Shown: piece after piece, positions 21,901 through 61,317 of the stretch
How the letters are laid out: every line of letters begins with the position of its first letter
Numbering within the stretch: the first letter of the stretch is position 1
Virus record (IMG/VR): IMGVR_UViG_3300032238_000599
Span: 62,001-126,000 of that record
Length of the DNA: 64,000 bases
Direction: 5' to 3' (one strand)
Source: a virus
Notes under the pieces: generated by a model
The model's input: the letters and a program-made list of their open reading frames with translations, nothing else
The model's database searches: none
What the model was told of the DNA's origin: nothing
Program-made: the position numbers and the translations under genes

Positions 21901-24808
21901 AAGCTCAACTGCTGGTGGCACAGCATTTACTAGTGAAATTACAACAACTACAGCACAGTCTGTATCGTTGTATGCCGCAGGATGGGATCATGTTGTTCCG
22001 GGAACTACAATTACAAACGTTCTTGACTTAACAACAACTTATATCATTGAACCTCGTATTAACTACACTGGTCCGGGATTGTTAGGAACAAGTAGAACAT
22101 TACCAGCAACTGCTACTTGGCAAGCCGCTACATATACATATGGCCAATTCTTAGCAATTGCCAACGGTAGTACAAGCACAGCATATTCCCCAGATGGGAA
22201 AACATGGGCAAGTGCAGGTGCGTTAACAACTACATCTTATGTTGATGTAGTGTTCGGTGGCGGTGAAGGCGCAATAGCAACCGCAGTTGTTGGTGGGTTA
22301 GGAGGTGTTGGCGCAGTACTTACAGCCGCCCTAGGTCCAGGCGGTGTTGGACAAGTTCAAACAGACCAAGTTGCAACCGTAACAGTTCTTAACGGCGGTA
22401 CAGGATATACAACTCCTCCAACAATCGTATTCACAGGTGGCGGCGGATCTAACGCTGTAGCTACTTGTACAGTTCTAAATGGTTCTATTGCATCAGTAAC
22501 TGTTACTGTAAACGGTAGCGCATATACTAGTGCTCCGACAGTAACAGCCGCAACAGATCGTGTAACGCAAATCAATATTGTAGCACGTGGTAAGAATTAT
22601 CTAAGTGCTCCTACCGTTACAATAAGCGGTGGAGGCTCAACTAACCAAGCTACTGGTACAGCGGTATTAACTAATAGTGGTGTAAGCTCAATTACTATTG
22701 GAAATAACGGCGGATCTGGTTATACTAGCACTCCAACAGTAACTATTTTAGATAGTACAGCAAGATATCTAGCAATTAGCGGAACAGCAGTAAACAACTG
22801 TTATCAAACAGTATCTGGAGCTATTACAGCCAGCGCTTGGACAGCAGGATCTAGTACCGGCAAGACAGATTTAAAATCTTTAGCATACGGACAAGTAGGC
22901 GGAGTAGGTTTATGGATTGCAGTAGGTGGTACTTCGGCAACTGCAAGTGCAGTATCAAGTTCAGATGGCGGCACAGCATGGACTGATCGTTCAAGTGCTA
23001 TTACTGCACTAAGCGCAGGATACTACGCAGGCGTTGCATTTGGTAATGGTTATTTTGTTGCTGTTAATAACGGCGGCAATAAGACATCTTATATGACTGG
23101 TAACCCAGCAACTTGGACAGCAGGCGGAACACTACCATTTACTACAGCAGTTAGTGTTGCTTATGGTAACGGACGTTTTGTTGTATTAGGTTCTAACGGT
23201 GCTGTTGCAATTAGTATTGATAACAGCGCAACTTGGAGCGCAATTGATACTGCAACCGGTACAACAACTAGTGTGTTATCAAGTAGCTTAACATGGTCTA
23301 CAATCAGATATGGACAAGGTTTGTTCATGGCAATTGCTCAAGGTACACAAACTTGTGCAACTAGCCCAGACGGTATCAACTGGACAGTATATGCAACAGG
23401 CATGCCAAGCTCAAGCAACTGGAAAGCTCTAGCATTTGGTAATCCAACTTCTGCAACACTAGGCGCACAACCATTATGGATTGCCGCAAGTAATACATCA
23501 GGTTCAATCGCCGCAAGTATTAGAACTGGTGCTCGTCCATTAGGCCGTATGAAAGTAATTGCTGGTGTAATAACTGAAGTTCGTATGGTAGAACCAGGAA
23601 GCGGATTCCCTAAAGGCAACGTTACTGCTACCACTGTAACAACAAACGTAATTACAACCGACGATACAACTAACTTAGTTGATAGCATGCCAGTAGTGTT
23701 TACTGGTTGCAGTACTGGCGGTCTAGCAAACAATACAGTTTATTATGTAATTGGCGCAACTATTGTAACTAACACTAGCTTCAAAGTTAGCTTAACAGCA
23801 GGTAGTGCAACACCAGTTACACTAAGTTCACAAACTGTAACAGGTACATATCGTGCAGGTCCAATTGTAACTCAGACAGATCCTAACAGAACTAAATCTG
23901 CTAACTTATGGTCACGCAATGGCGACGGTGCTCTTGGAAACCCAAGCTTCAACAACCGCGGTACTGGAAACATTACTGCTACAGCCGCAACAATTGGCGA
24001 CGGTTATAGCGACTTGTTCCAAACAGGAACTTATGTTAACGTCACCGGTTTATACAGTCAGCCAACTCCAGGTGCAAACGTACAGTTTGGATCAATTGGC
24101 AACGTATGGTATAAACTAGTTAGTGTTGTTAACTTGTTAGGGGTTGCTGGTAACTACTCTGCTAGCTTCCAAATTAACCCAGCTCTAACTACATTAAATG
24201 CACCACCACATGCTGATACAGTAGTAACAAGATTGAAGTATTCACAAGTTCGTTTAACCGGACATGACTTCTTGTACATCGGTACTGGAAATCAAACACA
24301 AACTAACTATCCTTATGTTAACCCAAATAGCGCAATTCAGGCTAATCAAGCTAACAGTTCGGGTGGCGGACGAGTATTCTTTACAAGTACTGACCAAGAC
24401 GGTAACTTCAACGTTGGTAACTTATTCGGAGTGCAACAGGCAACTGGTACTGCTACATTAAATGCTAACGCATTTAACTTGTCAGGACTACAATCATTGC
24501 AACTGGGTTCAGTTAGTTTAGGCGTCGGAAGTGCTGTAATTACACAATTCAGTACAGATCCATACTTTACTGCTAACAGTGACAACGTTGTTCCAACACA
24601 AAAAGCAATTAAGAGCTATATTAGCTCACAAATTGGTGGCGGAGCAAGTACTTTGAACGTAAATACATTAACAGCTGGTGTGATTTACTTGTCTGGAAAT
24701 AACATCTCAACAACGACAGGTGTTCAAATTAACGTAACAGCTAAAATGAATTTCGTAGGCGGAATAGACGGTGCTCCCGTAGCCCTTGCGTACTTCATGC
24801 AAAAATAA
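15923..24808 (+). CDS. Giant modular tail fibre/adhesin, paralogue of the upstream fibre (2961 aa)
   Basis: It begins like its neighbour (MAEFKLGRIKFVWKGAW) with about seven CBM5/12-like repeats (~16-460). YVAPTGTDRTDFG at ~518 starts the beta-helix part. Four copies of a module with the signature RD.G...DA..YD and G.NY.S......YY occur near residues 670, 973, 1289 and 1588. At least five YYV-type modules are scattered. GGRIRATNGNSSYGTYG (~1765) matches the neighbour. A propeller at ~2059-2535 (YGNGRFVVL, SPDGINW) is interrupted after its first blade by a Gly-rich insert (~2112-2282, SGYTSTPTVTI-type repeats). The last ~190 residues contain VFFTSTDQDGNFNVG and VVPTQKAIKSYI, as in the neighbour. 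There is no cupredoxin insert here. Host attachment is inferred from architecture. Confidence 0.75.
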   Translation: MAEFKLGRIKFVWKGAWVGNTAYLVDDAVSYNGKSYMCVVSHTANSSSFETDLTAVTPKWQLAADGASWKGNWATNTYYAVGSQVKYGGQVYLCKTAHTSAATAALGLEADSGKWDLFASSFVWKGAWTTSTRYKVNDFVTYGGISYVCKTYHTSAATAADGLEVDILKWDVLNAGINYIGAWSGSSVRYKLNDVVKFGADLWICTGAHTSTGSTIDLVNFDIFINGFEFLNSWSSGTNYAIGDTVTYGGYTYIALDNHINKVPSTETAYWTPFTTGFNFRGEWSGATQYLIGDVVRVGGYTYLANGDSLNSAPPSGDWSRLNSGIRFVNTTASYTTVSTTNVTVTNGSATGAQFTVARSNTVYTLTRTANGSNYTSGDIIKILGTAVGGQTPSNDITITVTASAGSITGQTHTGVAVTWTTGTAYVAGDAVQYGANTYICILAHTADSSKRPDADVLGTYWNLLTAGAESNALTTTGDTYYYGSAGPARLPVGNEGQVLRVNSGLPSWGYFGQVNNLIYVAPTGTDRTDFGITPENPLKTVRYAAKLIEDGYLNQNACALLAKNKQFAIKEVNNYLQYTYRTSVTGTSGGAFTTANTSKLVVNTPITFTNQTGSLTLGGSAITSTTVYYVKAITTDISFTVSATAGGAALVAGGTGTATGQYYVDQTKAERDSGFVYEAIVHDLGHNGTWKTTAAVRSYYTTAGTNYITAQTGYQITQFAAGQLYLKTLIQKILANTAPSSNYQTLNSVVTTANQIIDTTLTAETGAVTTTNTLVDLVVNGMLAGSTTSLAAEVFPNTTISIKTGTYNEVLPIVLSSNTAVVGDELRSTVIQPKAANGLLSGDKAKTTAALNRIKAVIPDLVANTTISATSGNTQTQIKTLPAGSAGSTAASTAVVSSVGVMNSIVAGGLSNVPAFSYTTPTGYNSSYLIGFGDGKAQLVQNYQFIKDEISAYLNTNYPVVWAALGAGGQASCQRDVGYMLDAVVYDMTYGSNYQSLIAGSAYYSFGVSTIAASEKAATVAAYYRLEEVVNYVVQKNTSWTKSTGNSTSQITTGTAGSAASAYFASARIQDINNWVTAGSEQTTASAFTGSTSTTTLTVTAITSGTIVAGSCLTGGAIAAGTYINTQLTATNAATATTTATASSGATSITVASATNIVAGQLITATNIPQGTFVRNDYVSGTTINLVTIYGSPVQTLGALSTTSISFYAPGNTGTYQISVSQAQSSTTLTGNASITPVTSGAYALATSALQTAWTALQARRTEIQSDTVVWVQKFYQNVNFNAGTTSPCYRDAGLIVDALGWDMVLGTNFNSITVGRSYYRAIASAQLVLSSQKNAEIGAIQFIGYKAKMVASSGASAQLTQMIDDIKEYINGTTSITCTATTATTNVITTSSTANLVLGMPIVFTGTVAGGIVAGQTYYVLAIPSSTTFTVTSASGSTVALTLTTTTSQSFAGVQTSLQTYGTITYDNTLATIKGAEILRANKTFLSYEASAYITATYTYSVTTTTASNDRFTVSGTHAFVTGDPVVFSGTPFAGSGVTAGTVYYVTSTPTSATFTVSATQGGTNIDISSNGSGTFTVAYSFDATSCRRDAAAIIDAMVYDLQYTGNYKSLRAAQLYVNAINGSKLENMFLVRNGTGVRNMTLQGLNGTLTQVNVYGTKRPTAGAYVALDPGFGPNDTNVWITTRSCYSQNVTMFGTGCSGGKVDAALHAGGNKSMVKNDFTTIISDGIGVWCTGAGSLTELVSVFNYYGYAGYLAELGGRIRATNGNSSYGTYGVIAEGTDTYETSINATVTNRANQALISNVVTDSVNKVWRFEYSNAGNAYTNTVHTISGTGYNAAATADEFRDAAIFETRIVDLNDNNGVGGTNYVTQSNAAQGGAVGEITIAATDTALSTAYTGMRIQITAGTGVGQYANILNYNNGNKKAIIYKDSFATLTITATTNGSPSTVTVASTSTLYANMPFLVASTVGGLTLNTVYYVKTIVNATTFSVSSTAGGTAFTSEITTTTAQSVSLYAAGWDHVVPGTTITNVLDLTTTYIIEPRINYTGPGLLGTSRTLPATATWQAATYTYGQFLAIANGSTSTAYSPDGKTWASAGALTTTSYVDVVFGGGEGAIATAVVGGLGGVGAVLTAALGPGGVGQVQTDQVATVTVLNGGTGYTTPPTIVFTGGGGSNAVATCTVLNGSIASVTVTVNGSAYTSAPTVTAATDRVTQINIVARGKNYLSAPTVTISGGGSTNQATGTAVLTNSGVSSITIGNNGGSGYTSTPTVTILDSTARYLAISGTAVNNCYQTVSGAITASAWTAGSSTGKTDLKSLAYGQVGGVGLWIAVGGTSATASAVSSSDGGTAWTDRSSAITALSAGYYAGVAFGNGYFVAVNNGGNKTSYMTGNPATWTAGGTLPFTTAVSVAYGNGRFVVLGSNGAVAISIDNSATWSAIDTATGTTTSVLSSSLTWSTIRYGQGLFMAIAQGTQTCATSPDGINWTVYATGMPSSSNWKALAFGNPTSATLGAQPLWIAASNTSGSIAASIRTGARPLGRMKVIAGVITEVRMVEPGSGFPKGNVTATTVTTNVITTDDTTNLVDSMPVVFTGCSTGGLANNTVYYVIGATIVTNTSFKVSLTAGSATPVTLSSQTVTGTYRAGPIVTQTDPNRTKSANLWSRNGDGALGNPSFNNRGTGNITATAATIGDGYSDLFQTGTYVNVTGLYSQPTPGANVQFGSIGNVWYKLVSVVNLLGVAGNYSASFQINPALTTLNAPPHADTVVTRLKYSQVRLTGHDFLYIGTGNQTQTNYPYVNPNSAIQANQANSSGGGRVFFTSTDQDGNFNVGNLFGVQQATGTATLNANAFNLSGLQSLQLGSVSLGVGSAVITQFSTDPYFTANSDNVVPTQKAIKSYISSQIGGGASTLNVNTLTAGVIYLSGNNISTTTGVQINVTAKMNFVGGIDGAPVALAYFMQK

Positions 24809-25194: not shown

Positions 25195-26070
25195 ATGGCT
25201 CGATATAATACAGCGTTTAAAACATTAGTTGTTACCGGAACAGCAACTATTAGCACACCATTGCAGGGAACTGTGCTGGTGTCGCTTACAAGCACAGCCG
25301 GCTATACGGTAACATTACCAAGCCCTGTGTTATTTCCTGGTGCAAGTTTACAAATTTATAATAATACCAGCGGTGCGTGTACATTAAGCACACCAGCTGG
25401 TAACTTTACAGTCGGCGCCGCAGGTGCAAGTACGCAAGCGATTGCATCGGGACAAGTTTTTACTCACGTGTCAGATGGCGCAAACTGGATTACATGGTCA
25501 GATGTAAACGGCCCTGGCTCATTTACTACACTAACAGCAAGCTCAACAGTAACATTAAGTCCTGCAAGTGCCAACGTAGCAATTAGTCCAAGCGGTAGTG
25601 GTAACGTAACTATTGCTCCTGCAAGTCCCGGTGCAATTAACAACATGACCATTGGTGGTAGCACACCATTAGCTGGTACATTTAATGCACTAACATCAAC
25701 TGGTACAACTACGTTACAGTTGATTAGTGAGGTATTAAACACAAAATCGGGTGCAAATGGTACTGTTGTCCATGACGCAAGTACTGGCGACATTTGGTAT
25801 CACTCAAGCATTGCATCCTCTTTTACAGCAAACTTTACTAACGTGCCAACTACTTCAAACAGAACTCTAGTTATGACGCTAATACTAGCTCAAGGTGGCA
25901 CACCATTTAATGCGACTGGCGTACAAATTAACGGTACTGGTTATAGTATTAACTGGGCCGGTGGTGTTGTACCTTCAGGTCGTGCAAGTAAGATTGACGT
26001 TGTGACGTTCTTCATCTATAACGTAGGTGGAACATTTGCAGTTACTGGACAGATGAGCTCATTCGGCTAA
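25195..26070 (+). CDS. Tail fibre-like structural protein (291 aa)
   Basis: It contains shaft motifs typical of phage fibres: FTTLTASSTVTL, VAISPSGSGNVTIAP and INNMTIGGSTPLAGTFNALTS. The N-terminal part (YTVTLPSPVLFPGASLQIYN, then GQVFTHVSDGANWITW) resembles beta-roll segments in fibre proteins. The C-terminal ~100 residues (NRTLVMTLILAQGGTPF ... GYSINWAGG) look like a compact tip domain. It lies between two other fibre-type genes in one co-directional run with 20-nt gaps. A structural role is likely; the receptor is unknown. Confidence 0.65.
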   Translation: MARYNTAFKTLVVTGTATISTPLQGTVLVSLTSTAGYTVTLPSPVLFPGASLQIYNNTSGACTLSTPAGNFTVGAAGASTQAIASGQVFTHVSDGANWITWSDVNGPGSFTTLTASSTVTLSPASANVAISPSGSGNVTIAPASPGAINNMTIGGSTPLAGTFNALTSTGTTTLQLISEVLNTKSGANGTVVHDASTGDIWYHSSIASSFTANFTNVPTTSNRTLVMTLILAQGGTPFNATGVQINGTGYSINWAGGVVPSGRASKIDVVTFFIYNVGGTFAVTGQMSSFG

Positions 26071-26092: not shown

Positions 26093-27718
26093 ATGCCATT
26101 AGTAGGAACATTCGGTGGTAATACCACAGCAAAAGGTGTAGGTGGATATCACCCTGGTGCAGGACCAGTTGACACCACATCCAGCGCCGCGCAAGGTGTA
26201 ATTGGTACTACTACTGTATCAGGAAGTTTAAACGGTACAATTTATAACCTAAGTGCTAGTTCAGTTACTGGACAGCGTATTACACAAGACCCATTTTTTA
26301 TGGGTAACGTTACCTACAGTTTAGTAGGTGCAACTAGTGGAACAGCTAGTAATACTAACGGTACGAACGTCACTGTTAGTACAACTACCGGATTATATAC
26401 TGGACAAGCAATTTATTTTTCTGGTTACGGCACCGGCGCTTTAAATAGTGCAAGTACTAGTGCGGCTTTAACACCCGGGCAGTATTGGATTACAGCAATT
26501 GGCAGTGGCGTTATCAGCATTGCAAGAACAAGCGGGGGAACTGCTATTAACTTTGGCGGATCTACTACGTTAACTGGCGTTAACTGGACTACAGGTCTCC
26601 CTCCGGGATTTAGCTTTAACGCTTCGACTGGAACTATTAGTGGTAGTTTAACAATTAATGCAAATACAAACCCGGGTGAAAAAGCCGGTATTATTAATCA
26701 CACAGTTCCAACAACTGGTGCAAACAGTATTGGTACAGGACCGTATAATCCTAACGGCATTCAGCCAGCAACTTATCGTGTAACTGTCCGTGCCACAGAT
26801 AATAGTTATGCTAACAACTATTCAGAGCGTTACTACGATATTAACTTGTCAGTTCCATTTGCTTACAGACAAATTATTACTGTAGGATATACTCAAGCGG
26901 GATATGCTAATTCAAGTACATGGACCGACAGTCAAAAAACAGTTGGTGCTAATGATACAACAACTTTATTAGCCGGCAACCAAGAAGCAAGCCATAACTA
27001 TCAAATGAGCGCACATAACTATACACGTTCATTTACCTATGGAGCTTCTGGTACGCATTGCGGAGCGGCAAGTAACATTATTGCATTTAACATGAGAACA
27101 GAAACTAACAACACTTCGGGTTATACTAGAAGTTATCCAGTTAGCCAGAATAACTGTTCTACATTAATGAACGAATTTTATTATGCATGGATTTCAAGCC
27201 CAGCAACAGCTTCAGTGTATGAGCATAATATGACCACTGAAACAATCACCGGCGCAGTTCCAGGCATGAGTTTATCAAATCCTCTAGTTGGAGGAAACTG
27301 GGACGGTTACGGATGGTGGGGCCCAAGCGGCGCAACCATGAACTATGCTACACGTACTAACACATCCGGGCGCGGCGGCCAAGGCGGCGACGCTCAGTGT
27401 AAAGTTCTAATGAACAAACAACGTTACCAGTATGCGGGGCGTGAAGGCTGTCCAAATAGTAACTGGCGCCGCAGTGATATGACTACTGCTACAACAAGTG
27501 ATAGCGCACCAGGAAAGTACTATAACTCAGGTGAAGAAAATCACACAACTGTACAAGATTGGGGCTACTGTGTTGGATATTATGGTCCTGCTGGACACGT
27601 TAATACCAGTTACAAGTTTGTTTATGCTACAGAAGCCAACTCTGGATCTACTTCATCATTAGACTGTAAAGGTGGACACCCGGGAAACAGCTCAGCAACA
27701 GCGGCATGGCGAGATTAA
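26093..27718 (+). CDS. Structural adhesin with putative Ig fold interrupted by a YYV-type module (541 aa)
   Basis: Residues ~70-80 (FFMGNVTYSLVGA) and ~165-185 (GLPPGFSFNASTGTISG) form the two halves of a putative Ig (He_PIG/cadherin-like) domain, followed by ATYRVTVRATDNSY. The halves are separated by ~80 residues (VTVSTTTGLYTGQAIYF ... YWITAI.SG..SIARTSGGTAI) that match the module repeated in the giant fibres. The C-terminal ~250 residues are rich in Asn, Gly, Tyr, Ser and Cys (HCGAASN, GGQGGDAQCKV, REGCPNSNWRRSD, GYCVGYYGPAGH), suggesting a disulphide- or metal-stabilised tip. GGAG lies 7 nt before the ATG. Last of the fibre run. A receptor-binding role is inferred. Confidence 0.6.
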   Translation: MPLVGTFGGNTTAKGVGGYHPGAGPVDTTSSAAQGVIGTTTVSGSLNGTIYNLSASSVTGQRITQDPFFMGNVTYSLVGATSGTASNTNGTNVTVSTTTGLYTGQAIYFSGYGTGALNSASTSAALTPGQYWITAIGSGVISIARTSGGTAINFGGSTTLTGVNWTTGLPPGFSFNASTGTISGSLTINANTNPGEKAGIINHTVPTTGANSIGTGPYNPNGIQPATYRVTVRATDNSYANNYSERYYDINLSVPFAYRQIITVGYTQAGYANSSTWTDSQKTVGANDTTTLLAGNQEASHNYQMSAHNYTRSFTYGASGTHCGAASNIIAFNMRTETNNTSGYTRSYPVSQNNCSTLMNEFYYAWISSPATASVYEHNMTTETITGAVPGMSLSNPLVGGNWDGYGWWGPSGATMNYATRTNTSGRGGQGGDAQCKVLMNKQRYQYAGREGCPNSNWRRSDMTTATTSDSAPGKYYNSGEENHTTVQDWGYCVGYYGPAGHVNTSYKFVYATEANSGSTSSLDCKGGHPGNSSATAAWRD

Positions 27719-27758: not shown

Positions 27759-28652
27759 ATGATCGAAAGAACCGATAGAATATTTGAGTATCATCAAAAA
27801 TTTCAATTAAGCAAACCAAATACTGACATATCAATGCTTTCAGAGCGAGAGGTAGAAATTATCAAAATCGCTATGAACAAAGAATGGACAAACCCTAAAT
27901 TTAAAATGAAGTGGTTTGTTGGTAACGCACAAGTTACAGCATTTGCACAGTTCCGTCAATTTTTAATGGAACTAAAAGCTAAAGAAGAAGCCATCGAAGA
28001 CTTAGAATATAACGTTGCCAAGTATGATATTGAACTTACTCGCAACGAACGTCTTATTGAAGAAAGCCCAGACGATTTAGAACGTAAACTAGCAGAGTTA
28101 GATATTTGGCGTTTAAAACGAGATAAAGAACGTACACAACGTATTCTTCAAAATTGGTATCTAGAGCGCCAGCAATTCTGTGACCTACTAGTAGAAATGT
28201 CAGGAACTGATGCAGTTAAACTGCCTGACGGTAGTGGTAGAACTTACTGGGATATTATTGGAACCGATGAAGAAGATGTCTATGAAAAAGTGTTATGGAC
28301 AAATCGTCTAGCAAAACAAGCGGCCTGCGACATTATGTTCTATGGGCGTATTAATACCGGTAACATGGATGCTATTTTACAAATGGATCCTGATCAACAG
28401 GCTGAAACATTTGCACTAGCAACTGACTTTAGCATTAAAATACAAACACATTTACATCAGTTACAAGCAAATGCCGAAGAAACTGCTAGACTTCCAGGTG
28501 CACCGTTTGATCTTAAAGAACTAAAAGCTCCTAATATTCCATTAGACGACGGTATAGCACAGAAATTAGATACTATCATGCCTCCCGCAACACCAATTAT
28601 GCCTGAGGATGATAAAGATGACAAGGATTTATTAAATGTATATAATGTTTGA
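27759..28652 (+). CDS. Hypothetical helical protein downstream of the fibre genes (297 aa)
   Basis: Unlike the fibres, this protein is charged and helical. Residues ~65-145 (ELKAKEEAIEDLEYNVAKYD ... ERTQRILQNWYLERQQFCDL) look like a coiled coil. The C-terminus is acidic (MPEDDKDDKDLL). An ERTDRIFEYHQKF start and a LSEREVEIIKIAMNKEW segment are also visible. It overlaps the next gene by 17 nt, so the two are probably translated together. Position just after the fibre block suggests a fibre-assembly chaperone or a tail component, but that is inference. I do not recognise the family. Confidence 0.6.
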   Translation: MIERTDRIFEYHQKFQLSKPNTDISMLSEREVEIIKIAMNKEWTNPKFKMKWFVGNAQVTAFAQFRQFLMELKAKEEAIEDLEYNVAKYDIELTRNERLIEESPDDLERKLAELDIWRLKRDKERTQRILQNWYLERQQFCDLLVEMSGTDAVKLPDGSGRTYWDIIGTDEEDVYEKVLWTNRLAKQAACDIMFYGRINTGNMDAILQMDPDQQAETFALATDFSIKIQTHLHQLQANAEETARLPGAPFDLKELKAPNIPLDDGIAQKLDTIMPPATPIMPEDDKDDKDLLNVYNV

Positions 28653-29202
28653 ATCCCAACACTGGGAAGATCAGCGAATTAAGTACTTTGGAAGTACCTG
28701 GTTTATGCAGATTGCACACATCGATGAAGCAGACGAAGCAAGCGTTGATATTACTCCACTAAAAGGTATTGTAATTTCAAAAGATCTAGCCTATTGCTTA
28801 AAGATGCATCATGCAACTGAAGGTAAAATCATTGTCCGTGAACTAAAAGAAATTATGGACTATGCAGACTATGAAAGCCCAACAGAATTAAACTACGGTG
28901 ATAATGGTGGTCGTAAAGATTATTACACGCTAACCGAACAGCAATTGGCTAACTCTATCCAGTTTATTAAAAATATGATGACTATTTTCATGGACAATTA
29001 TGGACATAGAAAAGATCCTGCTGCCTTAATGGAACTGAAAAAGCAAGTGATGAATTTGCCTGCTACCGGTACTGTAGAAAATTTAAACAATGCTCAAATG
29101 TTTATGAGTACATATTTTGAATATCAAACTCCATATACACAACATAGAGAAAAAACACCGTCAATTGGCATACGCTTTCAATTTGATGGTGAAGGTTGGT
29201 AA
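28636..29202 (+). CDS. Hypothetical protein coupled to the 297-aa gene (188 aa)
   Basis: Overlaps the upstream gene by 17 nt. The first ATG (28636) has AAGG about 10 nt upstream; a second ATG three codons later (28645, MFESQHWEDQRIKYFG) is an alternative start. The protein is mixed alpha/beta with Met/Tyr-rich segments (NSIQFIKNMMTIFMDNYG, FMSTYFEYQTPYTQH). No signal peptide or transmembrane helix is present. It ends just before a strong intrinsic terminator, closing the fibre-region transcript. Function unknown; assembly of the long fibres is a guess based on position only. Confidence 0.55.
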   Translation: MYIMFESQHWEDQRIKYFGSTWFMQIAHIDEADEASVDITPLKGIVISKDLAYCLKMHHATEGKIIVRELKEIMDYADYESPTELNYGDNGGRKDYYTLTEQQLANSIQFIKNMMTIFMDNYGHRKDPAALMELKKQVMNLPATGTVENLNNAQMFMSTYFEYQTPYTQHREKTPSIGIRFQFDGEGW

Positions 29203-29226
29203 ACTCACAACTTCACTAAACAAACA

Positions 29227-29260
29227 AGATGCTACAATAAGTAATGTAGCATCTTTTTTT
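29227..29260 (+). terminator. Intrinsic terminator after the fibre-region operon
   Basis: AGATGCTACA (29227-29236) pairs perfectly with TGTAGCATCT (29245-29254) around an 8-nt loop and is followed by a run of T. Only 11 nt separate it from the next ATG, so no full promoter fits between the terminator and the following cassette. Confidence 0.85.
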
Positions 29261-29271
29261 ACGGCAGAATT

Positions 29272-30954
29272 ATGAGAAAAATCTTTAGCGTACCATTAAA
29301 TCCAAAACTAAACGAACAACAATTTAACGAGTTTTATGAGTTTTTAAAAACTTATAAAGACTACATTCGTGACGTATATTTTACTAGCCGAATTGCTCCA
29401 TTTAAGCAAGACGCAATGGGTGATGTATTCTTTATTCAAGAAGATGAAAGCCAAGCAATTCATGCGGCACTACATATTCAGCGTACACTAGACATTCCTG
29501 TTAGCGCAACCTTTAACAATATCAATGTTCCGCCTACGCAACAAAACTTAGATTTGTTTATTAAAAACTTTAAACCATTGTATGATGCTGGGGTACGCAA
29601 TGCTACTATTCCACACACACATTGGATGGCAACAGGACAAATTAAACGTGCATTTCCAGACTTGTATGTTAAAAACACAATCCTACGTAATGTAACAACA
29701 GCACAAGAAGTAGTTAATCTTGCAGGCTATGGGTTTGACTACATTAACCTTGATAGAGATTTAATGCGTAACAGAGATGCACTATTACAAATTAAAAAAG
29801 CCAAGCAATATGTTAAAGATACAATGGGCAAAGACATTGCTATTAGCCTGTTAGCTAATGAGGGATGTGCTGGTGGTTGTTCAATGATGGATGAACACTA
29901 TCACTTTAACAACACTAGAGATAGTGCTCGTCCGCAATACTTTAACGATCCTATTAGTCGTGTTAGTTGCCCAAGTTGGGACGTACAAGATCCCGCTATC
30001 TTCTTAAAACGTGCAAACTTTACTCCATGGAGAGCAGATTGGGACGAGTTTATCGATGAGCTAGGCATTGATAGTATTAAAATGCATGGTAGAGAAGCAC
30101 CTACTCGCCTATACGAAACTATGGATATGATTGAACGTTATGCGGCTGGAGAAGAATTACTGTACCCTACATTTGAACAATACCTAGAAGACACTAATCT
30201 AGCAGAAAAGCCTATTACTGTATGGCGTGAAAAAATTAAAAATTGTAAGTTTGAATGTTGGGATTGTCAATATTGTGATAAAGTCTACAAAGCCAAGTCA
30301 GATATAGAAGCTAGTGAACTAGTTAAACACGTAGCAGCCTGCATCGAACAAAGTGGTGTACCTACAATTAAGTTAGATATTCCAGGATTAACTAGCATTC
30401 GTGTACAATCATTGCTTAATAGATTAGCGCAAGGTGTAGATACTTACTTAGAAGTGGGCACAGCATTAGGCGCAACATTCTGCGCGGTAATCAAAGACAA
30501 TCCAATTACTGCTATTGCTATTGATAACTGGGTTGACAATGTACAACCTCGTAATGAAGGGCGTGTTGCTATGCCACAAAACGACATTCAAGTATTTGCA
30601 GAGAATGTACGCAAGTATCAAGGCAATAGTAAAATTACAGTATTGAATGGTAATTGTTTTAATACAGATGTTACACCATTTGCAGGACAAGTTAAGATGT
30701 TTTTCTATGATGGCCCTCATGAAGTTGAGGCATGTAAGCTAGCAATGACACACTTTGCTCCTGCGCTAGCAGAAGAAGCTATTGTAATTTTTGATGATGC
30801 CAACTGGAATAATGTAGTTGAAGGTGCAAAGCAAGGCATTGAAGCCGCAGGACTAAAAGTCAGCTATGAAAAAATACTATTAAATGATGAAGAAGATGCT
30901 AACGCTTGGTGGAACGGTTTGTATATTGCAGTCGTGAGGAAACCTAATGATTAA
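29272..30954 (+). CDS. Fusion of a peptidase-U32-like Fe-S domain and a SAM-dependent methyltransferase (560 aa)
   Basis: Residues ~1-340 look like the U32 superfamily (the TrhP/RlhA/UbiU-UbiV type, which includes RNA and quinone hydroxylation factors): a TIM-barrel-like run (VSATFNNINVPP, VRNATIPHTHW, FDYINLDRDLMRN, ISLLANEGC) and the core motif NEGCAGGC..MDEHYHF. Candidate iron-sulphur cysteines are C199, C203 and C233, with a cluster at C325, C329, C332 and C335. Residues ~380-560 are a class I methyltransferase (YLEVGTALGATFCAV, AIDNWVD, MFFYDGPHEVEAC, IVIFDDANWNNV). It overlaps the halogenase by 8 nt and heads the cassette. The substrate is unknown: RNA, peptide and small molecule are all possible. 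The start has only a weak SD (GGCAGAATT). Confidence 0.65.
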   Translation: MRKIFSVPLNPKLNEQQFNEFYEFLKTYKDYIRDVYFTSRIAPFKQDAMGDVFFIQEDESQAIHAALHIQRTLDIPVSATFNNINVPPTQQNLDLFIKNFKPLYDAGVRNATIPHTHWMATGQIKRAFPDLYVKNTILRNVTTAQEVVNLAGYGFDYINLDRDLMRNRDALLQIKKAKQYVKDTMGKDIAISLLANEGCAGGCSMMDEHYHFNNTRDSARPQYFNDPISRVSCPSWDVQDPAIFLKRANFTPWRADWDEFIDELGIDSIKMHGREAPTRLYETMDMIERYAAGEELLYPTFEQYLEDTNLAEKPITVWREKIKNCKFECWDCQYCDKVYKAKSDIEASELVKHVAACIEQSGVPTIKLDIPGLTSIRVQSLLNRLAQGVDTYLEVGTALGATFCAVIKDNPITAIAIDNWVDNVQPRNEGRVAMPQNDIQVFAENVRKYQGNSKITVLNGNCFNTDVTPFAGQVKMFFYDGPHEVEACKLAMTHFAPALAEEAIVIFDDANWNNVVEGAKQGIEAAGLKVSYEKILLNDEEDANAWWNGLYIAVVRKPND

Positions 30955-32473
30955 TAAAGTCAGACGTATTACAATATTTGGTGGTGGAACTAGTGGTTGG
31001 TTAAGTGCCGCATACTTGTCACGCAACCTAAAGATACCTGCAGAAATTACACTAATTGAAGATACTAGTCTAGGACCCATTGGTGTAGGAGAAGGCACAC
31101 AGCCTATGACTGCTCGGTTTCTACATGAGTGTGGAATTGAACCCAAAGACTGGTTAAAAGACAGCAATGCTGTGTTCAAATATGGTGTTGAACTTATTGG
31201 ATGGAATGACGAGCCTTACTTTGTAGACAATGATGTGCCTATTAACTGTATTGTAGGCAGTAAGTTGTTTACCAGCGATTACTTTATTGACAAACCCTAC
31301 AGCGAAGTTGCCGCGTGGCACCCTGCTTATCAACTAGCCAAGGCAAATGTGTCTAGCAAGTTTGACGAATACCTCGACGTTAATCACGGTAGTGGACCCG
31401 AAAGTTATGGTGCTGTACACTTTGATGCTTATGCTATCCTACGTAGTATTAAAAACATCTTAGGCGACAGTATCAAACACATTGACACAAAGATTACAGA
31501 CATTAGACAAGACGTCTACGGCATTACAGAACTTGTAGGTGTCGATGGAACCAAGTATACTGCTGACTTGTTTGTTGATTGCAGTGGATTTCAAAGTCTG
31601 TTACTAGAAAAAACACTAAAAAGCCCCTTCACAAGTTACAGTAACATTTTACCTTGTGACAGCGCAGTAGTATTTCAGACACAGTATAAGGATCCGCAGA
31701 AAGAATGTCATCCATATACTAAAGCAACTACAATGAACGCTGGATGGCGTTTTACTATTCCCACATTTAAACGTGTAGGTAACGGGTATGTTTACAGTAG
31801 CAAACACATTACACCTGAGCAAGCTGAACAAGAAATGCGTGAAGCGTTAGGTGAGTTTGAAGCACCAGCAAGACATTTAAAAATGAAGTGTGGCGTACAC
31901 AAAGAAACAGCAGTTAAAAATGTCTGTGCTGTAGGACTTGCCGCTGGATTTATTGAACCCTTAGAAGCAACAGGCATTACATTTACTACAGCCGCAGTTA
32001 AATCGTTAACAGAATTACTAAACATGACTAACAATGTTTGGAATGATTTCTGCAGACAAAACATCAATCGCGGGTTTTACGAAATGACGACTGAGATTCT
32101 AGCATTTGTATGGGCACATTACCATTTCAGTAGCCGCAATGACACTGAGTTTTGGCAAGACATACGTAAGCAAGAGTTAAAAAATGCACCCAAAGAAGTT
32201 CAAGAAATACTAAGTTTCTTTTTGCCACGACCCCAGAAATATATCTTTATAAATCCTAGTAGTATGTTCTGTAACTTTCAGTGGTTTACCATGTTACATG
32301 CAGGTGGCGCATACAAGAATGTTGCTAGCGATCTAAGTGAAAAACAAAAAGCCTATACTAAGTATTTCTTAGATAGCCACACAGCTAGAGTAAATCTAGC
32401 TAAAGAAACATTCCCTAATCAATATGACTATTTAGAAACATGGTACACTGATTGGGACTTATCGGAGTTTTAA
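30947..32473 (+). CDS. Flavin-dependent halogenase (tryptophan halogenase family, 508 aa)
   Basis: These enzymes use FADH2, O2 and halide to make HOX, which is passed through a tunnel to a catalytic Lys. All landmarks are visible: the FAD-binding GGGTSGW motif (G12-W18), GVGEGTQP (46-53), K78 aligned with catalytic K79 of RebH (NAVFK versus NASYK), W-x-F-x-I-P at W267 (the usual form is WxWxIP), and PLEATG with E340 matching the RebH Glu346 region. Length is close to the ~530 aa usual for the family. A related enzyme, VirX1 from a marine cyanophage, is a broad iodinase. The next gene begins directly after its stop (TAAATG). No flavin reductase is seen nearby, so reduced flavin would come from the host. 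The substrate is unknown. Confidence 0.85.
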   Translation: MINKVRRITIFGGGTSGWLSAAYLSRNLKIPAEITLIEDTSLGPIGVGEGTQPMTARFLHECGIEPKDWLKDSNAVFKYGVELIGWNDEPYFVDNDVPINCIVGSKLFTSDYFIDKPYSEVAAWHPAYQLAKANVSSKFDEYLDVNHGSGPESYGAVHFDAYAILRSIKNILGDSIKHIDTKITDIRQDVYGITELVGVDGTKYTADLFVDCSGFQSLLLEKTLKSPFTSYSNILPCDSAVVFQTQYKDPQKECHPYTKATTMNAGWRFTIPTFKRVGNGYVYSSKHITPEQAEQEMREALGEFEAPARHLKMKCGVHKETAVKNVCAVGLAAGFIEPLEATGITFTTAAVKSLTELLNMTNNVWNDFCRQNINRGFYEMTTEILAFVWAHYHFSSRNDTEFWQDIRKQELKNAPKEVQEILSFFLPRPQKYIFINPSSMFCNFQWFTMLHAGGAYKNVASDLSEKQKAYTKYFLDSHTARVNLAKETFPNQYDYLETWYTDWDLSEF

Positions 32474-32914
32474 ATGTTAAAAAAATTAACCACAACTAGC
32501 TATGAAATTTACGAAGTTGAGCAACGTGAGTCCACTGACGATAACTATCTAGCAGTAAAAATTTGGAAAGATAGACAAAAGCTACGCCGCTGGCTTATTG
32601 GCTTAATGAACGACCGAGAAGTTATTCTTACTTGGCGCGACAGCGGACAAGAAGTAACCGCAGTAGCTACCCGTAAGTTAGGCAAATATGATATTGCACC
32701 AGTATTACCATCAGATGACGACATGCCTAAGATTAAAGATATTGTTAATCGAGAAGAAGTAGAAGAAATTCGTCACATAGCGTTTTATTCTATGCCTGAC
32801 AAGCAAATTATTGCAGTTTATTTAGACGACATTAGTCACTTTATTGTGTCTAATGAAGGCTTAAAAGAGCTAACAAATAAGCTAGTTGCAGCCGAACCTT
32901 TAATCACAGTATGA
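32474..32914 (+). CDS. Hypothetical protein between the two halogenase-type genes (146 aa)
   Basis: Its ATG follows the halogenase stop with no gap, and its end overlaps the next flavoprotein by 4 nt (ATGA), so it is translationally locked into the cassette. It is a soluble alpha/beta protein with charged segments (EVEQRESTDDNYLAVKIWKD, RKLGKYDIAPVLPSDDD, EEIRHIAFYSMPDKQI). No Cys and no phosphopantetheine-type Ser motif is evident. It could be a substrate-presenting or partner protein for the halogenases, but nothing in the sequence proves this. Family not recognised. Confidence 0.6.
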   Translation: MLKKLTTTSYEIYEVEQRESTDDNYLAVKIWKDRQKLRRWLIGLMNDREVILTWRDSGQEVTAVATRKLGKYDIAPVLPSDDDMPKIKDIVNREEVEEIRHIAFYSMPDKQIIAVYLDDISHFIVSNEGLKELTNKLVAAEPLITV

Positions 32915-34095
32915 AAAGACGATTAGGAATCATCGGCGGCGGCACCGCAGGTATAATGAGTTTATGCCATTTTCTAACTTATTTGGACAGCGAGTGGGAA
33001 GTTGTCTTAGTCTACGATCCTACAGCAGATATATTTGATGCACCAACTAGTGCTACTCCGGGATTTGTATCTGTCCTAGAAAGAGCATTTAATTTTAGTT
33101 TATTAGATACTTTGGAACCTCTCAATGCTACACTAAAGTTTGGTTCCATTTGGAAAAATTGGAGGCAGCAAACATTTAATTTGCCTAACATTGGAGGCAA
33201 TGCGGCTATACATTTTGATAGTCTTAAATTTAGAGACTATGTACTACCTAAATTAGAAGAGCATTGGCCTAATAAATTTAAATCTATCACAGGACATCTT
33301 GACAGTCTTACAAATAAAGAAACACATGTTAGTGCCGTAGTCAACGGTGTTGAACACGTATTCAATTATGCTATGGACTGTCGTGGCGCACCTAATGACT
33401 GGGCGGACTATGAAGTATTAACTGATATGCCAGTTAATCATTCTTTTGTTCACAGTAAGAAATCGCCAGGTGACTGGACATATTCTGGGCAGAATGCAAC
33501 TCCTTATGGTTGGATGTTTGAAATTCCCTTAGGTGATAGGCAATGCTATGGATATCATTACAATGATAATATCACTAGCAAAGAAGATGCATTGGCAAAT
33601 TTTGCAGAAATTATCAACGTCCCAGTTGAAGAATTGACAGTAACAGAATATCAATATAAAAGCTATTATGCAAACAAAGTGTTTGACGGCAGGATAATGA
33701 AGAACGGGAATCGAGCTGTATTCTTTGAACCTATTAGTGCAAACTCTGTTTACATTTTTGATCAAGCCAACAGAATTTTTTATGCTTATTTGGCTAACAA
33801 TATCAAAACCCCTGAAATTGTAAATCGAGAGTTTGTAAAAGTAGCAAATGATTTGCGAGAATTAATTTGCTATTACTATCACGGTGGTAGTATATACGAC
33901 ACTAAATTCTGGGACTATGCTAAAGAAGTTACCGGCAACGTTATTAGAAAAAGTGAAACAATTAAAGAAATTAGTTCCCAGTGTAAAAATTGGGTAGATA
34001 AACAAGCACCAGTTTATGCCCCAACTTGGTTTTTTACAGGTATACAACTTTACCATTTAGACAAAAATTTTGGCTACGGGTATTTTTCACAATAA
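32911..34095 (+). CDS. Divergent flavin-dependent halogenase-like protein (394 aa)
   Basis: The N-terminus has the FAD motif GIIGGGTAGI (G6-I15). NATLKFGSIWKNW carries K76 at the position of the halogenase catalytic Lys, and GWMFEIPL (W201) matches the W-x-F-x-I-P form of its neighbour. The EPLE(A/S)TG segment reads EPISANS (E273-S279), so the catalytic Glu is replaced by Ser276. At 394 aa it is about 115 residues shorter than the neighbour. It may be a halogenase with altered chemistry, a monooxygenase-like derivative, or a partner subunit. It overlaps the 146-aa gene by ATGA and is followed 8 nt later by an oxygenase gene, all in one operon. Confidence 0.7.
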   Translation: MKRRLGIIGGGTAGIMSLCHFLTYLDSEWEVVLVYDPTADIFDAPTSATPGFVSVLERAFNFSLLDTLEPLNATLKFGSIWKNWRQQTFNLPNIGGNAAIHFDSLKFRDYVLPKLEEHWPNKFKSITGHLDSLTNKETHVSAVVNGVEHVFNYAMDCRGAPNDWADYEVLTDMPVNHSFVHSKKSPGDWTYSGQNATPYGWMFEIPLGDRQCYGYHYNDNITSKEDALANFAEIINVPVEELTVTEYQYKSYYANKVFDGRIMKNGNRAVFFEPISANSVYIFDQANRIFYAYLANNIKTPEIVNREFVKVANDLRELICYYYHGGSIYDTKFWDYAKEVTGNVIRKSETIKEISSQCKNWVDKQAPVYAPTWFFTGIQLYHLDKNFGYGYFSQ

Positions 34096-34103
34096 GTAAT
34101 CAT

Positions 34104-34721
34104 ATGACATATCCACTAACCAACGACACTATAATGGCAACAGCATTAATGCCACCTTGGGCAAAACTAGACAATGTGTTTACTACAGAGGAACTAGATA
34201 GAATCATAGCCTACTGCTCACAGTTTCAATTAGATGCTGGCGTAATTGGTAGTTACAATAAACAGACTGTAGATAAAGAACTACGCAAAAGTCAAATTAA
34301 AATGCTAGAGCCCAATAGCGAAACACAATGGATTTTTGAAAGACTAAATGCGGCAATATTTGATGCTAATAATTTCTTTTTTAGATTTAACATAGTAGGT
34401 TACGACTTCTTACAGTACACAGAGTACAGCACTTTCGGTGATAACTACGGTTTCCACACTGATATGAGCTACGGCAAAGACGGTCGCGCTGAACCACACG
34501 CTCATAGAAAACTAAGTTTCATTCTAGTACTAGCTGAAGAAACTGAATACCAGGGCGCAGAGTTAGAGTTCATGGTATCCACAGACGAAAAAGTTAAATG
34601 CGTCCAAAAAAAAGGTGACTTAATTTTATTCCCATCTTGGATACTACATCGCATTACTCCTATTATTAGTGGCAAACGTAAATCATTAGTTGGTTGGGTA
34701 ACAGGACCTAAATTCAAATGA
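34104..34721 (+). CDS. 2OG-Fe(II) dioxygenase, prolyl-4-hydroxylase/PKHD type (205 aa)
   Basis: It uses 2-oxoglutarate and O2 to hydroxylate a substrate at a non-haem iron centre. The HxD...H facial triad is visible: H118 and D120 in YGFHTDMSYG, and H182 in SWILHRI, with a downstream basic residue in GKRKSLVGW for 2OG. GDLILFPS.I.HRI.P is characteristic of the P4Hc/PKHD group. The start is taken at ATG 34104; the frame runs further upstream into the preceding gene, and an internal ATG at 34134 is a weaker alternative. It overlaps the next oxygenase gene by ATGA. Oxygenases of this fold are frequent in aquatic T4-like phages, but targets are rarely known. Confidence 0.8.
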   Translation: MTYPLTNDTIMATALMPPWAKLDNVFTTEELDRIIAYCSQFQLDAGVIGSYNKQTVDKELRKSQIKMLEPNSETQWIFERLNAAIFDANNFFFRFNIVGYDFLQYTEYSTFGDNYGFHTDMSYGKDGRAEPHAHRKLSFILVLAEETEYQGAELEFMVSTDEKVKCVQKKGDLILFPSWILHRITPIISGKRKSLVGWVTGPKFK

Positions 34722-35314
34722 CACAAATTAAACTTGTTCCTTTATTTCATTCTGATCTTTTTATCTTAGAAAACGTAGGTACTCGAGAACAAATCGATGC
34801 TCTAGTAAAACAAATTGCCGCCGAGAAAAAATCAGGCGCGGTAACACAGCCTCGCTCCAATGAAGGGTGCTGGCGAAGCAGTAGTATGTGGACTGATATT
34901 GATTGGTTATACAAACGTATTGAAGAATTATTACAAACTGCTATAGACCACTACACTAAAATTGATAATGATTTTAAACCAGGTCCTGGAGTTACAGTAG
35001 AACAATGGACAAATGTAAATGATCCTGGATCAAGAAATGTGTTTCACGCTCATAAGTCGGCAGCATTTTCAGTGTGCTACTACATGCAAGCATCTGGGAC
35101 CGGAGCATTACGGTTTGTAAATCCTAGTAACATTCTTAATGACTGCAATCACATAAGTCCCTTTACAAGAGGATTTCCTTACTATCCTAATGATAGAGAT
35201 TTAGTGTTGTGGCCAGCATGGCTTCCGCACGAAGTAGAACCAAACTTATCAAAAAAACAACGCATTAATATGGCGTTTGACATAACTTTTAAAGACACTA
35301 CATCTCCTCAATGA
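34718..35314 (+). CDS. Putative 2OG-Fe(II) oxygenase (198 aa)
   Basis: It resembles the 2OG-Fe(II) oxygenase group found in many aquatic phages (TIGR02466/PF13759-like). The signature is FHAHKSAAFSVCYYM, with H110 and H112, followed by LVLWPAWLPHEVEPN with H171. A short N-terminal segment (PLFHSDLFILEN) resembles the 'LFPTPI' start common in that family. It is the last gene before the terminator at 35325, in a four-base overlap with the preceding oxygenase. The second metal ligand is His rather than the usual Asp, as is common in this group. Substrate unknown. Confidence 0.7.
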   Translation: MTQIKLVPLFHSDLFILENVGTREQIDALVKQIAAEKKSGAVTQPRSNEGCWRSSSMWTDIDWLYKRIEELLQTAIDHYTKIDNDFKPGPGVTVEQWTNVNDPGSRNVFHAHKSAAFSVCYYMQASGTGALRFVNPSNILNDCNHISPFTRGFPYYPNDRDLVLWPAWLPHEVEPNLSKKQRINMAFDITFKDTTSPQ

Positions 35315-35324
35315 TAAGTAAATC

Positions 35325-35347
35325 AGCACTACATTGTAGTGCTTTTT
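35325..35347 (+). terminator. Intrinsic terminator closing the accessory cassette
   Basis: AGCACTAC (35325-35332) pairs perfectly with GTAGTGCT (35336-35343) over a 3-nt loop and runs into TTTTT. The following membrane-protein gene starts 12 nt later, after AAGGAG. Confidence 0.85.
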
Positions 35348-35358
35348 AAGGAGAAAAG

Positions 35359-36399
35359 ATGGACTTCATCACAACTGTCCTGTTAAAGGACATTTCGTAT
35401 CTATGGATGATATTCTTCATTATGATCACTGCCGGACTAGCAAAAGAGTATCAACTCTTTGCCCCGGCATTTGCCTATGTAAGAAATACATTCCGTAGCA
35501 ATAAGTTCGTTGTAGTACTCTTAAGCGCAATTGGAGGAGTTCTTCCAATTGAAGGCCGAGTCACTGTGTCAGCAGGTTTGCTTGATACAGTAGCACCTAA
35601 GGAAGGGCATGGCCGCGAGAAGTTGGGTATTGTTGATTACTTGAGTACGCACCACTATTATCTGTGGAGCCCTCTTGAGAAAACAGTTATCCTACCTATT
35701 GCGGCGTTTGGTCTAACTTACGGTGCGTGGCTTGGCTTAATTGCACCCTTGTTAGTTGTCAGTTTTGTATTCATCGCTTGGTACATTTGGTCACAAGTAC
35801 ATGATGAAGAAATTACAATTACGCCCGGAAACTTTAAACTATCGGCAGTTTTACGCAATGTTTTACCAATGTTTATAGCCATTGGTTTTTACATCTATGA
35901 AAGCAAGTGGATGATTGCCTGTTTTGGTTTCCTAACACTATACTACATCATCATTAGCCAACAATGGAATATTAAGAAATTACTTTCTTATGTTCGATGG
36001 GATGTGTTAGCATGGGTAGGTGCAGTTATCGCATTAGGTAACTACATGAAAACTTATGATAGCGCATGGCAAACTATGCTAAAAGGAAGTATGCTCGACC
36101 CGCATACATTCGTAGGTATGGTAGCTATATCAGCTATTGGTTTCTTAGCTAGCTTCTTAATGGGTAGCAGTGGTAAATTTATTGCAATTGCCGTATTAAT
36201 GTCTCAAGTCTTCGGTGTTGAGTACTTTTTATGGTTCTTTGCTATTGACTTTGCTGGCTACTTAATTAGTCCTACACACAAATGTGTTATGATCGGTAAT
36301 CGATATTTTGGTACACCTGTGGGAACTTACTATAAAGCACTAGGAACCTGGGGAGGATTGTTGCTAGCAACTGCTGGCGCAATTACTTTCTTAAATTAA
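35359..36399 (+). CDS. Polytopic membrane protein, putative transporter (346 aa)
   Basis: About eight hydrophobic helices are visible: WMIFFIMITAGLA, VVVLLSAIGGVLPIEG, ILPIAAFGLTYGAWLGLIAP, LLVVSFVFIAWYIWS, MFIAIGFYIY, IACFGFLTLYYIIIS, VGMVAISAIGFLASF and FLWFFAIDFAGYLI. A conserved-looking loop GGVLPIEGRVTVSAGLLD and a C-terminal SPTHKCVMIGNRYFGT recall the DUF401/CitMHS-like transporter group, but this is from memory and not firm. A strong AAGGAG lies 9 nt upstream. It follows the cassette terminator and ends 9 nt inside the convergent Nudix gene. A full-size transporter is unusual cargo for a phage. It would act in the host inner membrane; the substrate is unknown. Confidence 0.7.
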   Translation: MDFITTVLLKDISYLWMIFFIMITAGLAKEYQLFAPAFAYVRNTFRSNKFVVVLLSAIGGVLPIEGRVTVSAGLLDTVAPKEGHGREKLGIVDYLSTHHYYLWSPLEKTVILPIAAFGLTYGAWLGLIAPLLVVSFVFIAWYIWSQVHDEEITITPGNFKLSAVLRNVLPMFIAIGFYIYESKWMIACFGFLTLYYIIISQQWNIKKLLSYVRWDVLAWVGAVIALGNYMKTYDSAWQTMLKGSMLDPHTFVGMVAISAIGFLASFLMGSSGKFIAIAVLMSQVFGVEYFLWFFAIDFAGYLISPTHKCVMIGNRYFGTPVGTYYKALGTWGGLLLATAGAITFLN

Positions 36400-60810: not shown

Positions 60811-61317
60811 ATGCAAATATTAACATTAGAAAATAAAACATTTCAACTAAACAATTTACCCGATGAGGTAGATGAAAACACTAGGTTTGCTGTATTAGAC
60901 AACAGCGCACCTGCAGAACCAGACTTCTTTTTTGTACCATTAATATTTTTAGAAAGTTTTAATGCGCCAGCAATGGTATTAAGAATCGGTGAAAACGAAG
61001 TAACAATGCCCATAGATTGGAGCATTGCAGTTGGCGATAGTTCTAGTTCGTGCGATATTGAAATACTTCCGCTTACAAGTCTTAATGATAGGGGATTTGA
61101 AGCATTAGTTTTTAATCCCCTAAGTTCATTTAGGGTAGAATTTAAAAAAATTGAAATTATAAATTTTTACAATGATGTTAAATGGTATTTCCCTAAGATG
61201 CGTAACGGGCAATTATTAGCAGTTCCAACTCAGCAAGGACACAAACCAGAGTGTTCATACTTTGTTAAAGAGATTAGTAGACAAAGTGAAATTATTCAAT
61301 TAGACAAATTATTATGA
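60811..61317 (+). CDS. Conserved hypothetical protein after uvsW (168 aa)
   Basis: A beta-rich protein with FFFVPLIFLESFNAPAMVLR, EVTMPIDWSIAVGDSSSSCD, ILPLTSLNDRGFEALVFNPL and NDVKWYFPKMRNGQLLAVP. I recall close relatives beside uvsW in cyanophages, always without a known function. It starts 4 nt after the uvsW stop and overlaps the next gene by ATGA, so it belongs to the early operon. No catalytic motif is visible. Confidence 0.65.
   Translation: MQILTLENKTFQLNNLPDEVDENTRFAVLDNSAPAEPDFFFVPLIFLESFNAPAMVLRIGENEVTMPIDWSIAVGDSSSSCDIEILPLTSLNDRGFEALVFNPLSSFRVEFKKIEIINFYNDVKWYFPKMRNGQLLAVPTQQGHKPECSYFVKEISRQSEIIQLDKLL

Follow-up and report, generated by a model that had tools for sequence, protein, structure and literature searches.

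Genes for flavin-dependent halogenases, 2-oxoglutarate (2OG) oxygenases and a fusion of a U32-like domain with a methyltransferase (U32-MT) form a block that recurs beside tail-fiber genes in many phages. We analyzed this block in a 64,000-nucleotide stretch of viral DNA (here called the window), bases 62001 to 126000 of the 145-kb IMG/VR virus record IMGVR_UViG_3300032238_000599. Its source is described as a T4-like aquatic phage; among isolates, its terminase comes nearest (54%) to that of large PA5oct/Paride-group Pseudomonas phages rather than to cyanophage ones. Because the block recurs at the same tail-fiber place in many phages, its enzymes may chemically alter the tail proteins with which the phage binds its host. 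Membership in the tail-fiber module, the strongest pattern seen, makes virion proteins a better first substrate candidate than RNA or a small molecule. That the enzymes form a modular protein-modification cassette of the tail-fiber module, acting on tail-tip proteins, is a tentative but distinctly possible reading. A more far-reaching version, in which T4-like phages halogenate, hydroxylate and methylate their own tail-tip adhesin by means of an exchangeable cassette behind the tail-fiber genes and so diversify their receptor-binding proteins, is rather more doubtful.

The cassette comprises six plus-strand genes (29272 to 35314) which, as the first-pass annotation had described, overlap or abut with a single 8-nt gap. 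They encode P0001, the U32-MT fusion (29272 to 30954; 560 aa; labeled T4-GC354); P0002, a flavin-dependent halogenase (FDH) of the tryptophan-halogenase family (30947 to 32473; 508 aa); P0003, a 146-aa protein (32474 to 32914; family U146); P0004, a short halogenase-like flavoprotein (32911 to 34095; 394 aa; HAL2); P0005, a P4H/PKHD-type 2OG-Fe(II) oxygenase (34104 to 34721); and P0006, a 2OG-FeII_Oxy_5 oxygenase (34718 to 35314). The joints are an 8-nt overlap (30947/30954), TAA-ATG (32473/32474), ATGA at 32911 and again at 34718, and the gap at 34096 to 34103. Pfam and PHROGs bore out the enzyme families named at first pass: Methyltransf_24 in P0001 (the whole protein being phrog_1458), Trp_halogenase in P0002 (5.7e-96) and P0004 (1.1e-25), 2OG-FeII_Oxy_3 in P0005 (5e-13) and 2OG-FeII_Oxy_5 (PF13759) in P0006 (2e-14). 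The block holds the record's two halogenase-family genes and two of the three 2OG genes that these families pick up in it; the third, a 2OG-FeII_Oxy_5 gene, lies outside the cassette at 61314 to 61961, near the window end.

Motif and residue conservation identifies P0002 as a tryptophan-halogenase-family FDH with intact catalytic residues and predicted halogenating activity. The flavin adenine dinucleotide (FAD) motif GxGxxG (GGGTSGW) and the GVGE loop (GPIGVGEGTQP) are present and conserved, and the FAD glycines, catalytic Lys (K78) and Glu (E337), equivalent to PrnA K79 and E346, are invariant in an alignment of 36 halogenase-family sequences. The WxWxIP motif reads WxFxIP (GWRFTIP), the second Trp being replaced by a Phe; the Trp is found in the closest relatives, e.g., contigs L148 and L192. 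P0004 belongs to a short (approximately 390-aa) halogenase branch which lacks an insert of roughly 100 residues, and retains the catalytic Lys and Glu, aligned at the invariant columns. Its GxGE FAD loop is lost (DAPTSATPGF versus GIGESSNPSF in L148, L192 and L097), whereas its tree neighbors keep the loop; its activity as a halogenase is therefore doubtful and the copy in the window may be impaired. Tandem halogenase gene pairs, each overlapping by 11 bases, were observed in S-RIM44 (L004, 7515 to 10626), P-RSM6 (L204, 4422 to 7578) and P-TIM40 (L208, 5998 to 9094). In a different phage type, L098 to L102 (e.g., L099, 9998 to 14194), a P0002-like halogenase gene lies directly 5′ of a family B DNA polymerase gene, away from tail genes.

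P0005 and P0006 are, by their sequence, 2OG-Fe(II) oxygenases with intact ligands. The HxD...H triad and 2OG-binding Arg of P0005 (H118, D120, H182 and R192) are invariant, as are H110, H112, H171 and R182 of P0006, where HxH replaces HxD. P0005 matches phrog_274. Pfam places a P-TIM40 gene labeled "DNA endonuclease V" (L208, 10985 to 11593) among the 2OG oxygenases; denV is probably a mislabel for some genes in cyanophage tail loci. P0003 has no Pfam or PHROGs family match and a single, sub-cutoff NCBIfam match. It is predicted to adopt a small helix-plus-beta fold, and a search with the predicted structure gave no significant match, as hits of heme-binding, Sm-like, WYL and Tudor type all had E values above 0.08; a flavin reductase or any other role is therefore not claimed. 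Neither a profile scan nor a single-sequence scan yielded P0003 relatives; family members were gathered through neighboring genes, and in all 21 a halogenase gene lies within four genes.

Viral contigs were scanned with P0001, P0002, P0004 and P0007, the last being a DUF401/phrog_14035 multi-helix membrane protein encoded next to the cassette (35359 to 36399; DUF401, 2e-10), giving 188 loci. Counts were made on distinct proteins, and since the sequences are related they are not counts of independent events. The block recurs beyond chance, both as subsets in dozens of contigs and as a fuller set in the same order. L148 and L192 carry U32MT-HAL1-U146-2OG-HAL2-P4H-OXY5-DUF401, i.e., the window order plus one extra oxygenase, followed by the same NUDIX and sheath-stabilizer genes on the opposite strand. 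The ordered combination singled out at first pass is thus a genuine, recurrent association but not one unique to this phage. A 2OG gene lies three or fewer genes away from 41 of 50 distinct halogenases (82%), compared to 484 of 2,914 other genes in the same loci (17%). HAL2-P4H-OXY recurs as an ordered set, and in another type of phage (L112 and L113) the arrangement is P4H-OXY-X-HAL2. Neither scattered positions nor degraded active sites, the two findings that the first pass had named as refuting, are seen for the core of the block: its linkage is recurrent, and nearly every homologue retains its active site.

The tail-fiber connection is seen on both sides of the block. Preceding the cassette in the window is an array including a giant tail-fiber protein of 2,961 aa (15923 to 24808; phrog_9851 tail fiber, 1e-146) with five carbohydrate-binding-module-like repeats (PF02839 CBM_5_12, five stretches) and a small tail-fiber-like protein resembling Phage_depo_C (25195 to 26070; PF25692, 1e-3, below cutoff), relatives of which also occur 3′ of the cassette in other phages. 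Next come a phrog_1417 protein (26093 to 27718; 9e-26; "sericin 1 precursor-like" in cyanophages), a phrog_1409 protein matched in PHROGs (27759 to 28652), which neighborhoods show to be a near-constant companion of U32-MT, and a 188-aa protein often found between phrog_1409 and U32-MT (28636 to 29202), all on the plus strand. In the P0002 scan the commonest order was tail-fiber genes, phrog_1417, phrog_1409, 188-aa protein, U32-MT, an optional 2OG gene, halogenase, 2OG gene, 245-aa protein, U146 and a tail gene. The approximately 245-aa phrog_7084 protein (L106, 12074 to 12811, and relatives), a frequent cassette member in relatives, is missing from the window. Of the 83 distinct contigs with sequence upstream of U32-MT, 76 have phrog_1409 no more than three genes upstream of it, and 71 have a tail gene no more than six genes away. 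A scan with phrog_1409 itself gave only two loci, so what follows this gene was seen via the scans with other genes. The P0002 scan, the unselected subset, gave 21 distinct halogenases: U32-MT is near 20 of them, tail genes are near 18, and 18 have a 2OG gene at most three genes away. Tail genes flank the block on both sides in many contigs, and the gene 3′ of it matches baseplate-wedge/tail-fiber families.

Isolate phages show a similar arrangement. P0001 matches 123 isolate records (77 Synechococcus, 38 Cyanophage and 8 Prochlorococcus) and the phrog_1409 protein also matches 123, with an identical organism split. In P-SSM4, Syn19, P-HM2 (these three labeled T4-GC 351 to 354) and S-CAM4 the two genes are adjacent, behind tail-fiber genes. 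Sixteen isolates with halogenases, picked by hit rank and not at random, were opened. In eight the halogenases are in or directly beside the tail-fiber module, most with 2OG genes: S-ShM2 and, with halogenases approximately 30% identical to P0002 and 2OG batteries at the tail-fiber locus, S-RIM44, Sf-CH11, P-SSM2, P-RSM6, S-CREM1, Sf-FP1 and P-TIM40. In two (HTVC008M and Sf-CH5) they are among other virion genes. In most phages in which it occurs, U32-MT is present without any halogenase, and halogenases without U32-MT were also seen, including those between phrog_1417 and phrog_1409 genes in L123, L156 and L170. The fusion enzyme thus appears to be the constant member of the cassette, and the halogenases and oxygenases exchangeable add-ons.

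The phrog_1417 product is a plausible tail-tip adhesin, given the giant fiber upstream, the baseplate-wedge/tail-fiber gene 3′ of the block and relatives that are fused to a Gly-rich domain (PF21722, 3e-19) or match phrog_863 "tail fiber assembly." If the cassette does modify tail-tip proteins, the enzymes would act on the newly made protein, with phrog_1417 as the first candidate substrate, followed by phrog_1409. Hydroxylation would fall to the U32 domain and to the 2OG oxygenases, O-methylation to the methyltransferase fused to the U32 domain, and chlorination or bromination of aromatic side chains to the halogenase; the altered tail surface might then shift receptor binding, stability or protease resistance. 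There are precedents for such substrates: 2OG enzymes of the prolyl-hydroxylase type modify proteins, and the target of at least one FDH (MibH) is a Trp residue within a peptide.

Several observations weigh against tail-protein modification. The substrates of characterized U32 enzymes are RNA or quinones, and those of most FDHs are small molecules. In 6 of the 16 isolates (S-SSM7, S-SCSM2R, Syn1, S-MbCM6, S-H38 and S-SSM5) the halogenases are away from tail genes. On the halogenase tree, genes must have moved into or out of a tail context no fewer than seven times, and the association has therefore been made and lost repeatedly rather than inherited once. The Trp, Tyr and Pro content of phrog_1417 proteins does not differ between loci with and without a halogenase (Trp, P = 0.59; Tyr, P = 0.84); Arg content differs strongly and was not used because the groups are related by descent. 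A hairpin in the cassette leader (see below) would put cassette and tail genes in separate transcripts. Finally, tail-fiber borders are plausible insertion hotspots.

This last point leads to a serious rival, which we nonetheless consider unlikely: that the border of the tail-fiber array is a recombination hotspot gathering unrelated accessory genes that act on different substrates and share no common pathway. The strong variation in cassette content among phages, the DUF401 and NUDIX genes at the same place without evident relation, the halogenases elsewhere in genomes and the many context changes in their tree would all fit. The content is, however, not random: the excess of 2OG genes beside halogenases, the pairing of U146 with halogenases and of U32-MT with phrog_1409, and the recurrent HAL2-P4H-OXY order, with P4H-OXY-X-HAL2 in another phage type, all argue against chance accumulation.

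That the fusion enzyme instead hydroxylates (U32) and then O-methylates tRNA uridine, thereby tuning translation during infection, seems improbable. The hydroxylase/O-methyltransferase pair would mirror Bacillus TrhP and TrmR, which make 5-methoxyuridine in tRNA (uridine-34), and YrrM/TrmR (5zw3) is the best PDB profile match of the P0001 methyltransferase domain. The match is weak (E 0.003), though, and in a structure search the C-terminal half of P0001 matches O-methyltransferases, many of them ahead of YrrM/TrmR. The N terminus is predicted to fold like a U32 protein: the AlphaFold model (predicted local distance difference test, 89) resembles U32 peptidase MK0906 (5d88) in Foldseek (E 3e-6; TM score on target, 0.68). 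The Pfam Peptidase_U32 profile gave no match to P0001 at E < 1, for which reason we call the domain only U32-like; of the fusion proposed at first pass, the methyltransferase half is secured by profile and the U32 half is supported by predicted structure, with Pfam blind to it. Homologues share a KMHGRE motif and seven invariant Cys, arranged in P0001 as C199-x3-C203, C233 and C325-x3-C329-x2-C332-x2-C335, a pattern that differs from what we take to be the U32 iron-sulfur Cys spacing. RNA modification also leaves the strict linkage to tail genes unexplained and the halogenases and 2OG enzymes unaccounted for. In a search of cellular genome contigs, P0001 had three hits, none giving a cellular context for the fusion: two were viral-looking contigs in metagenome-assembled genome (MAG) bins. 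The third, the sole cell-like occurrence, is a 366-aa U32-only protein, 43% identical, in a Syntrophaceae MAG (L214, 7589 to 8689) beside CysD/CysN-like genes.

Equally improbable is a small-molecule substrate. In that case the halogenase and oxygenases would modify a metabolite of the host, either free tryptophan or some other indole, in line with what has been proposed for cyanophage prnA, while DUF401 would move the product across the membrane. P0002 does resemble Trp 5-/6-/7-halogenases, a DUF401 protein is often nearby, and VirX1 (6qgm), a solved phage relative, is reported to iodinate diverse substrates, according to a title cited in PMC10452541. The block lacks, however, any scaffold-making enzyme, carrier or precursor peptide, and it is virion genes, not metabolic genes, that precede it. 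P0007 scores 40.9 for DUF401 against a Pfam cutoff of 24 bits and falls below that of TIGR00529. DUF401 is a frequent cassette neighbor, but it is common elsewhere in phages too, with none of the cassette genes nearby in 11 of 46 distinct contexts, and its co-occurrence with halogenases (14 of 46) was taken as no tie. The data hence do not sustain the suggestion of a dedicated transporter, nor that of one pathway acting on a single target, because the genes come and go independently, DUF401 is often elsewhere and P0004 has lost its FAD loop. A ribosomally synthesized peptide as the substrate was rejected, the abutting genes leaving no room for a precursor gene.

The first-pass annotation placed strong terminators at both ends of the cassette. 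The upstream one, a plus-strand hairpin with a T-run at 29226 to 29262, is real, conserved and covarying. Over 17 distinct sequences, pairing is preserved in 97.7% of pair cells and five pairs are changed on both sides; no shuffle reached the covariation score, with the proviso that relatedness among the sequences is not accounted for by the shuffles. In 3.2 Mb of loci there are 36 copies of the hairpin core T[AG]nTAnAnTAAGTA, of which 29 are at the leader site (overlapping contig copies included); the window has one. The loop core TGCTAnAnTAAGTA is conserved 5′ of U32-MT in the window, L006, L087, L090, L148 and others; L080, L084 and L096 have lost the T-run but retain the core. An Rfam search of the hairpin gave no match. 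The hairpin contains the extended -10-like motif TGCTACAATAAGTA (29230 to 29243; TGnTAnAnT). On our reading, the leader is predicted to combine two overlapping elements that share bases, a tail-gene terminator and a cassette promoter: the hairpin would stop tail-fiber transcription, and the cassette transcript would start, just 3′ of TGCTANANT, from the extended -10-like sequence that lies in the left arm and the loop. The downstream element, a perfect 8-bp palindrome with a short T tail on the plus strand between the cassette and the DUF401 gene (35325 to 35343), is at most a weak terminator, because few T residues follow and the terminator scan reports it for the minus strand alone. Terminator-like sites were not commoner in the window overall than in shuffles (11 versus 8.0 ± 3.0). 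The T4 late promoter octamer TATAAATA occurs 0 times in the whole window versus 7.9 expected in shuffles, as if avoided.

Phage halogenases and 2OG oxygenases have been cataloged for some 15 years as auxiliary metabolic genes of unclear or speculative role (PMC3037559, PMC2984593, PMC10452541), the roles proposed for prnA and 2OG genes being antibiotic protection, 2-oxoglutarate/nitrogen control and DNA repair (PMC2984593, PMC3037559, PMC10452541). No description of tail-protein modification by such enzymes, or of this gene set, was found in the open-license literature, which does not establish priority. The tail-linked module turns this open role into a question directly testable on purified virions. 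If tail proteins are indeed modified, the cassette would represent a new phage route to vary the host-binding surface and a source of protein-modifying enzymes.

Among known systems, the cyanophage block T4-GC351-352-353-354 of P-SSM4, Syn19 and P-HM2 has phrog_1417, phrog_1409 and U32-MT in the window order, after tail-fiber genes; the blocks inspected lack a halogenase, and their genes are annotated as hypothetical or "sericin 1 precursor-like." Cyanophage and pelagiphage PrnA-type halogenases, including VirX1, share with P0002 the family, catalytic residues and phage origin, and in several isolates also stand beside 2OG and tail-fiber genes, but they are only approximately 30% identical to it and lack a fixed U32-MT, 146-aa protein or leader hairpin. 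Bacillus TrhP and TrmR/YrrM correspond to P0001 in U32-like fold and class I O-methyltransferase, joined in a single chain in P0001, but differ by weak sequence similarity, Cys spacing and genomic setting. P0005 partly matches YbiX/PKHD-type 2OG hydroxylases, keeping HxD...H...R, but does so below NCBIfam cutoffs and lies in a phage branch. MibH, whose structure we take to be PDB 5uao, has the same FDH fold as P0002 and provides the precedent for peptide Trp halogenation, but it belongs to a lanthipeptide cluster and is distant from P0002.

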